Source: Pseudorhodoplanes sp.
Lineage (GTDB): Bacteria > Pseudomonadota > Alphaproteobacteria > Rhizobiales > Xanthobacteraceae
NCBI GenBank assembly: GCA_019187085.1
Contig: JABARS010000032.1
Location: 1 to 64,000 of the forward strand
Direction of reading: 5' to 3'
Length of the DNA stretch: 64,000 nucleotides
A program made the position numbers and the translations under genes. A model generated the notes under the pieces. The model worked only from the letters and a program-made list of their open reading frames with translations, did not search any database and had not been told where the DNA came from. How positions within the stretch are numbered: position 1 is the first letter of the stretch; every line of letters starts with the position of its first letter. Below, one piece after another: positions 60,528-61,900 of this stretch.

Positions 60528-60850
60528 GAGCCCGCGGCTGCAGCAGTCCACCGCGCGTGCATGGCGACGATCACGGCGCGCATGTTGTCTTTCAGGATGA
60601 TTTCCGGGCGCACGCAGGCTGACGGACCGCGGCAACCCGTTCACCGGATTCCTTGCCTTGTCGCGGCGCGCTGAGCGGACGCGCGCGTGAGGGTTTGCGA
60701 CTTGCGTATTGCGGGGCGCTCATAATGAGCGCGCGGCATCAACATGAGCGTGCGGGATCAACGTGCGGCGAATGGCGCGCAGGCTTCGCCGGCCCTGTCG
60801 TTTAAAGACGCGGGCGCGTCTTGCGGTCCCGTTCTCATCCTTCGCGGGAT

Positions 60851-61011
60851 GAAGCGCCGGGAGGCGCCAGGGGTTGGCGAGACCCCTTTGGCGGTGCCTT
60901 GCGATCGGCCCCGCCGCGCGCCTCGGAGAAACTCTCGCGACGCGTTCCGCGAGAATTTCCCGGAGGCGCGCGAGCCCTCAAGGCGGAGGGCCCGGCGCCT
61001 CCCGGCGCTTC
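60851..61011. repeat. 161-nt nested inverted-repeat element
   Basis: The ends are perfect 18-bp inverted repeats, gaagcgccgggaggcgcc (60851-60868) and ggcgcctcccggcgcttc (60994-61011). Inside are AGGGGT-N7-ACCCCT (60869-60887), a 24-bp hairpin with three mismatches (60916-60939 against 60948-60971, 8-nt loop) and GCCCT/AGGGC (about 60974-60991). It would fold as a multi-branched RNA or cruciform. It may be a MITE-like dispersed repeat or a structured RNA. Confidence 0.65.
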
Positions 61012-61080
61012 ACCGGACTCTGCCTAGCGGAATATAGGAATAAAGTCAAGATCGGATATTGCGGCAAGCACCCTCTTTGA

Positions 61081-61190
61081 TCCTCATGCTGAGGAGCCGA
61101 CCGAAGGTCGGCGTCTCGAAGGATGAGGCCACAAACAAGGGGCCGCCTCCTCCTTCGAGACGCGTCCTGCGGACGCTCCTCAGGATGAGG
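61081..61190. repeat. REP-like palindromic repeats, family A
   Basis: Two units, tcctcatgctgaggag ... ggcgtctcgaaggatgagg and cctccttcgagacgc ... gctcctcaggatgagg, match the repeats at 677-768, 2218-2321 and 11595-11642. Their inner hairpins are ccgaccgaaggtcgg and gcgtcctgcggacgc. Confidence 0.8.
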
Positions 61191-61219
61191 GCGGAGAAAG
61201 GCGGAGCGGGCTACATGCA

Positions 61220-61256
61220 GCCCGCATGGAGCGAAGCGGAATGCGGGATGGCGTGC
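61220..61256 (+). repeat. 37-bp direct repeat, left copy
   Basis: A 37-bp sequence beginning gcccgcatggagcgaagcgg is identical to 61864-61900. It contains the inverted arms CCCGCAT and ATGCGGG. The two copies bracket the DUF4160/DUF2442 gene pair. Confidence 0.85.
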
Positions 61257-61322: not shown

Positions 61323-61595
61323 ATGCCGACAATCGCGTATTTTCTCGGCATTGCGGTTGCGATGTATTATCGCGACCACAATCCGCCGCATATTCATGTG
61401 ATCTATCAGGGCTATGAGGCGTTGATCACGATCGAGGATGCGCGTGTGCTGCGCGGCAAGCTGCCGCCGACCGCGTTGCTGATCGTGAGGCGATGGGTAA
61501 CGATGCGGCGAGACGCACTGCTGGCAAACTGGGAGCGGGCGCGGACACATCAGGCGCTTGAGCGGATCGCAGGACCGGACGACGATGCTGATTAA
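61323..61595 (+). CDS. DUF4160 family protein
   Basis: The 90-residue product starts MPTIAYFLGIAVAMYYRDHN after gggggata. The segment YYRDHNPPHIHVIYQGYEALI is diagnostic of DUF4160. These genes are usually paired with DUF2442, as here, and are suspected toxin-antitoxin-like modules without firm proof. It overlaps the DUF2442 gene by 11 bp. The longer frame from 61059 runs through repeats and is not used. Confidence 0.9.
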   Translation: MPTIAYFLGIAVAMYYRDHNPPHIHVIYQGYEALITIEDARVLRGKLPPTALLIVRRWVTMRRDALLANWERARTHQALERIAGPDDDAD

Positions 61596-61860
61596 GGTGC
61601 GGAAGGCAAAACCGCTTGGCGGCTATCGGCTGTGCATTGAATTCTCCGATGATACCATCGGCGAACGCGACTTTGCCTTTCTCACGCACGAAACCGGACC
61701 GATGCTCGAACTGCTGAAGGACCCGGCCTATTTCCAGCGCGTGTTCGTCGAGGACGGCGTGCTGACCTGGCCGAACGGCTACGACTGGGACCCGATCGCG
61801 CTGCATGACGCGATGAAGGATGCGGGTGAATTGCGGCCGGTCGGGGACGCCGCGGAGTAG
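61585..61860 (+). CDS. DUF2442 family protein
   Basis: The 91-residue product starts MLIKVRKAKPLGGYRLCIEF and contains GVLTWPNGYDWDPIALHD, the DUF2442 hallmark ending in W-P-N-G-x-D. It overlaps the DUF4160 stop by 11 bp, so translation is coupled. The 37-bp direct repeat begins four bases after its stop codon. An in-frame upstream ATG at 61558 is less likely. Confidence 0.9.
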   Translation: MLIKVRKAKPLGGYRLCIEFSDDTIGERDFAFLTHETGPMLELLKDPAYFQRVFVEDGVLTWPNGYDWDPIALHDAMKDAGELRPVGDAAE

Positions 61861-61863
61861 GTA

Positions 61864-61900
61864 GCCCGCATGGAGCGAAGCGGAATGCGGGATGGCGTGC
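61864..61900 (+). repeat. 37-bp direct repeat, right copy
   Basis: This is identical to 61220-61256. It abuts the first piece of the duplicated lepA 3' sequence, which begins at its last base. Confidence 0.85.

Follow-up and report, generated by a model that had tools for sequence, protein, structure and literature searches.

A dispersed, multi-branched candidate non-coding RNA gene family in Xanthobacteraceae, represented by an intergenic locus of Pseudorhodoplanes

REP/BIME elements and the rhizobial palindromic intergenic mosaics are dispersed, palindromic and intergenic. HEARO/IscB and TnpB guide RNAs are large, structured RNAs with a pseudoknot and a mobile side, and standalone guide RNAs are known in IscB/TnpB systems. 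OLE, GOLLD, ROOL and raiA/ModT are large structured RNAs with independent non-coding RNA (ncRNA) genes; they are multi-branched, contain pseudoknots and are mostly of unexplained function (PMC12286853, PMC11706538). In the CsrB/RsmZ sponge RNAs, several hairpins repeat one loop motif, GGA (PMC7652899). Here, we describe an element of Pseudorhodoplanes sp. that, on comparative sequence grounds, is likely a minus-strand ncRNA gene acting in trans and amplified in some lineages as a DNA unit of promoter plus RNA.

The element lies in the window, by which we mean the whole 64,000-nucleotide stretch of DNA that was analyzed, within a gap without genes of ~796 bp between the end of an L,D-transpeptidase-like gene (60527) and a DUF4160-like gene (61324). 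The first-pass annotation had reported at 60851-61011 perfect 18-bp terminal repeats that enclose at least three further hairpins, one of them long with three mismatches, in a 795-bp region without a gene. Each of these observations was borne out: the terminal inverted repeat, which forms the closing stem P1, is perfect across 19 bp, so the claimed 18 bp hold; four internal hairpins are predicted within this stem; and the arms of the longest (60915-60939/60948-60972), 25 nt each, are 88% complementary, that is, with 3 mismatches. The folding check proposed at that stage placed the element far below chance, with fold energy z scores relative to dinucleotide shuffles of -8.6 (plus strand) and -10.8 (minus strand), and 0 shuffles folding equally well. 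The 161-nt interval itself is real, but it is the central domain only, since it appears to be the middle of a minus-strand predicted transcription unit, ~61049 to 60780, that extends to both sides. This unit consists, in order, of a promoter-like sequence, a five-way junction, a 3' hairpin and an H-type pseudoknot with an A-rich linker, the last two parts together occupying 60851-60782 on the minus strand (Table 1).

Table 1. Predicted parts of the minus-strand unit, with window coordinates and the evidence for each part
Feature	Position	Strand	Details and basis
Promoter-like region	61021..61049	-	-35 TTGACT (61049-61044), 17-nt spacer, weak -10 TAGGCA (61026-61021); sequence
ATTCCTATATTCC in promoter spacer	61041-61029	-	Sequence
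P1 5' strand, TGAAGCGCCGGGAGGCGCC	60994..61012	-	Fold; 17/19 P1 pairs invariant in 14 copies
Arm d', 8-bp hairpin	60972..60993	-	Folds of window and ortholog L005; covariation
Arm c', long hairpin (9 + 15 bp)	60916..60971	-	Fold; 5 basal pairs changed on both sides
Arm b', hairpin, loop GAUCGCAA	60890..60915	-	Fold; loop analysis
Arm a', hairpin, loop CUCGCCA	60869..60887	-	Fold; loop analysis; arm permutation test
P1 3' strand, GGCGCCTCCCGGCGCTTCA	60850..60868	-	Fold
3' hairpin H3 (CATCC...GGATG)	60836..60851	-	Sequence; counterpart visible in most aligned copies
H-type pseudoknot	60792..60822	-	S1 AAGACGC/GCGTCTT, S2 GCCC (loop)/GGGC, A-rich linker TAAACGACA; permutation test 0/5000
3' domain matched by covariance model R1	60756..60856	-	24.3 bits, E = 5.7e-7 in 2 kb; 90.6% identity to G002 ortholog

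Across the family, the sequence downstream of the core runs through a hairpin, GGAAAAAGGGA, a second hairpin pseudoknotted with sequence beyond it, and the tail GCGGAGCGTTGGCT. The window copy has the promoter-like, core and 3' parts; given its poor -10 box and diverged 3' tail, it may be weakly expressed. A simple permutation test of H3 arm complementarity among the family copies was not significant. Each strand of P1 is also itself a hairpin, GCGCC-GGGA-GGCGC, with a GNRA-type loop on the 5' strand, so that the two strands could alternate between pairing as one long helix and folding into two short hairpins that kiss.

The BLASTN search suggested by the first-pass annotation found relatives in the same genome, genus and family. 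These relatives number more than 100 and occur within Xanthobacteraceae in Pseudorhodoplanes, Afipia, Tardiphaga, Rhodoplanes, Pseudolabrys and relatives, the named genera coming from a search of named genomes with a 20-nt version of the stem sequence; 106 elements were extracted for comparison. In a complete-genome tally, the 16-nt stem sequence GAGCGCCGGGAGGCGC was present in 64 of 198 family genomes and 22 of 47 sampled genera, mostly as facing pairs 100-200 nt apart, and a reversed control pattern was almost absent. P1 is common to the extracted elements and the four-arm order is kept in most of them, with exactly four hairpins in 28 of 35 non-redundant copies. Once copies are read in one orientation (minus in the window), their flanks are conserved on both sides.

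Copies were also counted with covariance model R1, which is mostly a sequence profile because RNAalifold's own structure keeps just a short tail hairpin. The model reports 9 copies in the window genome, where family members number about a dozen, 12-14 in three complete genomes, 20 in G160, 35 in G208 (a metagenome assembly with 9% contamination, so that this count may be inflated) and 0 in two other genera tested; the richer genomes hold 9-35 copies each. Weak R1 matches in other families of the order (25-28 bits) were treated as unproven. A plasmid or phage origin was rejected, as a search of plasmids, phages and viral contigs gave no match to the element. A longer class of ~520 nt (L293 at C2:295926 and L299 at C14:3136 in the window's own genome, plus L297 and L291) has the same promoter motif and pseudoknot and a larger middle. 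The site between tatC and serS carries the longer class (L299) in the window genome and the short class (L027) in genome G004, which suggests that the two classes are variants of a single family.

The two strands of these elements differ in ways that bear on function at the RNA level. On the RNA strand, 96 of 135 hairpin loops contain the motif CGYMA, compared with 1 of 134 loops on the complement; the motif recurs on several hairpins, as in CsrB/RsmZ-type RNAs, and the loops carry it in place of the GGA motif for CsrA binding. Among the 35 non-redundant copies, 26 have the more stable fold on the RNA strand (p = 0.006), and the set of 35 contains 11 A-C mismatches on the RNA strand versus 41 on the complement, an asymmetry that is the expected trace of G-U pairs. 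As the G-U count alone is not significantly biased (133 vs 105; sign test p = 0.34), the strand bias rests on the energies, the A-C mismatches and the loops. Mimicry of the tRNA-Ala anticodon arm, suggested by the loop CUCGCAA, was dropped because the genome pattern matches were not tRNAs.

The pairing itself is conserved with covariation, as in ncRNA genes. In a 14-sequence alignment, 96% of cells pair and eight pairs change on both sides, which are the compensatory changes in the arms that the first-pass annotation had proposed to look for; they exceed those in shuffles, of which 0-1 of 500 reach any of the covariation measures, and slid controls drop to 39-53% paired. Complementarity of arm a' was 21 of 33 with its own partner and at most 13 in 2000 permutations, and that of arm d' beat all permutations at most offsets. 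P1, by comparison, does not vary in sequence, a constancy beyond what pairing alone would demand. Since the core is GC-biased, matching exact 4-mers at fixed positions gave no information on the pseudoknot, and we used an energy permutation test instead: S2 has a mean energy of -9.5 kcal/mol with its own partner and -6.9 (sd 0.36) with permuted partners, with 0 of 5000 permutations reaching the former.

A promoter-like site of the element's own, of sigma-70-like form and another feature of an ncRNA gene, is found family-wide and is weak in the window copy. Of 92 copies, 57 have TTGAC in the upstream region, against 12 for a downstream control region and 8 for the reverse strand; several copies have a near-consensus TTGACA-17-TATATT, and L019, L027, L293 and L297 have better versions of the -10 box than the window copy. 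The sequence GTTC-N7-GTTC or its complement, which we take to be the alphaproteobacterial LexA-box form, is found at the promoters of 24 of 26 G208 copies and in 0 of 101 downstream control windows; it is absent from the promoter of the window copy. In the window's genus, TAGGANTATATTCC, which differs from the LexA-like element, overlaps the -10 box, and a search of eight genomes with this sequence returned mostly members of the RNA family, the longer class included. The promoter motif AGGAATATATTCC was also seen beside IS1595-like transposase sequences (L296 and L298, at C9:50316 and C9:52530 of the window's own genome), ~0.4-2.6 kb from the RNA copy at C9:49906.

At the orthologous locus of genome G002, identity is 96.9% for the RNA core, 90.6% for the 3' domain, 83.8% for the adjacent gene stretch and 70.6% for the rest of the gap. 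This comparison points to purifying selection on the RNA core, which is conserved above the neighboring protein gene, and because of this stronger conservation the element very probably does a job as an RNA. The RNA is found next to lepA in the window's genus and in Afipia, Tardiphaga, Pseudolabrys and one further genus, and at the tatC-serS site in three genera, some loci at either site being judged by one neighboring gene. As both sites keep the RNA across genera, inheritance there is, on this distribution, vertical.

Other copies have spread. Recent duplicates such as L103 and L104, which are 97.6% identical, have in common exactly the promoter-to-tail unit, with divergence at both ends, and they span -178 to +76 relative to P1, so that the inverted repeats are not the ends of the unit. 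The copied unit starts just upstream of the promoter and its 3' end is a constant ...GCGTTGGCT, beyond which the sequence varies. No target-site duplication was seen at the L103/L104 boundaries, which were inspected without an exact empty site for comparison; in sister genomes, the RNA is absent from the L103 site, for one genome as judged with an empty-site query of joined flanks. As the promoter is included in the copied unit, we infer that some genomes amplify the whole promoter-plus-RNA unit as DNA and not by reverse transcription of a transcript. The copy numbers of 9-35 and the presence/absence site show a mobile, possibly selfish side of the family.

This behavior could be that of a selfish DNA unit with its own RNA gene, in which the RNA would aid the spread of the unit (for instance by guiding or scaffolding a nuclease or HUH transposase provided in trans) and would have no host function. 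Such a unit would account for the copying of promoter plus RNA with a constant 3' end and variable sequence after it, for copy numbers that range from 0 to 35, and it would have a parallel in the standalone guide RNAs of IscB/TnpB systems; we nevertheless consider it rather unlikely, as there is no Rfam HEARO match, no common neighboring protein, and deep conservation at fixed sites.

The first-pass annotation had offered a structured RNA or a MITE as candidates and had held that many copies would favor the latter. The RNA half of this proposal is well supported by the strand-specific loops, the covariation, the pseudoknot, the promoter enrichment and the purifying selection, whereas the MITE half is not, because the terminal repeats form the closing stem P1 of an RNA domain rather than the ends of a copied unit; multiple copies do exist, but they appear to be multiple RNA genes. 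If the element were a MITE or other non-autonomous DNA element, a transposase would recognize its hairpins as DNA and the transcript would be incidental. That is unlikely even though a genome can hold up to 34-35 copies at various intergenic positions, recent duplicates are sharply bounded, the L103 site lacks the RNA in sister genomes, and P1 is invariant. Against it stand the lack of a visible target-site duplication (with the limit on that comparison given above), the 96 versus 1 loop motifs on the two strands, and an orthologous copy conserved above the neighboring gene. We rejected a plain MITE on two grounds: the copied unit exceeds the repeats, ending outside them, and fixed sites, lepA and tatC-serS, are kept across genera.

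Template switching during replication can create and maintain hairpins without selection (PMC8794818), and the arms are long and nearly perfect. It is nevertheless very improbable that the elements are functionless palindromes kept perfect in this way, with covariation of mutational origin, as template switching predicts no strand bias, whereas loops, fold energies and A-C mismatches are all strand-biased, and it leaves unexplained the conserved loops on variable stems, the interleaved pseudoknot, the promoter and the purifying selection. A cis-acting terminator, mRNA-end stabilizer or leader of the downstream gene would suit stable hairpins near gene ends and the upstream gene, which is co-oriented in most copies, but is hardly credible when 51 of 90 copies have their downstream gene on the other strand, no neighboring gene family is shared beyond the conserved loci, a promoter-like site precedes the element and no U-run follows it.

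We rejected a leader or riboswitch on the grounds of the varied neighboring genes and of the downstream gene often facing the other way, and an intrinsic terminator on gene orientation; no such terminator was identified for the unit. No partner protein or target of the RNA family was found. Several other features of the surroundings were observed. In the window (61324-61860) and in G004 (L005), a DUF4160/DUF2442-like gene pair separates the RNA from lepA/DUF1508; no such pair was noticed there in Afipia-type loci. The pair in the window is flanked by the direct repeat AGCCCGCATGGAGCGAAGCGGAATGCGGGATGGCGTGC at 61219-61256 and 61863-61900. A second palindromic repeat at 61082-61190 (CCTCATGCTGAGGAGC ... 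GCTCCTCAGGATGAGG), upstream of the promoter, is of a dispersed intergenic type and unrelated to the RNA. In copy L151 (G208:C147), the loop of the first arm (arm d') holds a ~180-bp insertion flanked by the repeat CTGCGTCACTG, which looks as if another small element targets the loop. A boxA-like sequence (GCTGTTTGACA...GAATC) is found downstream of many copies (L142, L148, L150, L154, L084, L105 and others).

The favored ncRNA gene would produce a transcript of ~235 nt that acts in trans. Because the stems vary under constant loops, the repeated loops are suggested to be the part displayed, and the arms would present the identical loop several times to a protein, or to an RNA partner by loop pairing. 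P1 may be bound specifically, since it is constant in sequence, and would be a sequence-specific grip, and the pseudoknot would protect or anchor the 3' end. Expression would be gated by a repressor, through LexA-like sites in one lineage and the TAGGANTATATTCC operator-like element in others. We therefore propose that the RNA works in trans through multivalent loops, in principle as CsrB does but with another motif. A bolder proposal, which we regard as possible rather than probable, is an amplified repressor-gated RNA of a new kind: a multivalent scaffold or decoy whose arms are interchangeable and whose single grip is invariant, with dosage set by copy number and, in one lineage, induction by DNA damage; it might assemble into an as yet unrecognized RNA-protein particle or RNA oligomer.

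Rfam gave no match to the element, where even at E up to 10 nothing came near a gathering score, and none to its full-length relatives or the longer class; the weak microRNA matches were generic hairpins, and Rfam membership was rejected. A literature search, which covered one library, found no paper describing the RNA family, and the main text of two large ncRNA surveys does not mention these genera. The family is therefore best described as a new, previously undescribed one within a known kind, the large structured bacterial ncRNAs, for which its amplification and arm turnover are unusual. It indicates that large structured RNAs outside Rfam remain in bacterial genomes, and it shows structured RNA genes expanding and swapping domains at a fixed locus. 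With its spread over sampled Xanthobacteraceae genera, many copies, strong covariation and pseudoknot, it is accessible in culturable isolates (Afipia, Tardiphaga, Rhodoplanes), and the repeated loop and damage-type promoters make its partner protein and regulation directly testable.

In comparison with OLE, GOLLD, ROOL and raiA, the family is also large, multi-branched and pseudoknotted, and is also a predicted independent ncRNA gene; it differs in having no covariance-model match, a length of ~235-520 nt, dispersal in up to ~35 copies per genome, and variable arms that share one repeated loop motif. With the HEARO/IscB and TnpB guide RNAs, it shares a large, structured, pseudoknotted RNA with a mobile side, whereas it lacks a Rfam HEARO match and an adjacent nuclease, and its copied unit includes the promoter. 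Like REP/BIME elements and the rhizobial mosaics, it is dispersed, palindromic and intergenic; unlike them, it has a promoter, a fixed arm order, strand-specific loops, a pseudoknot and conserved loci. Finally, like CsrB/RsmZ, it repeats one loop motif on several hairpins, which is consistent with multivalent protein binding, but its motif is CGYMA and not GGA, and it has a single closed multi-branch domain plus a pseudoknot.
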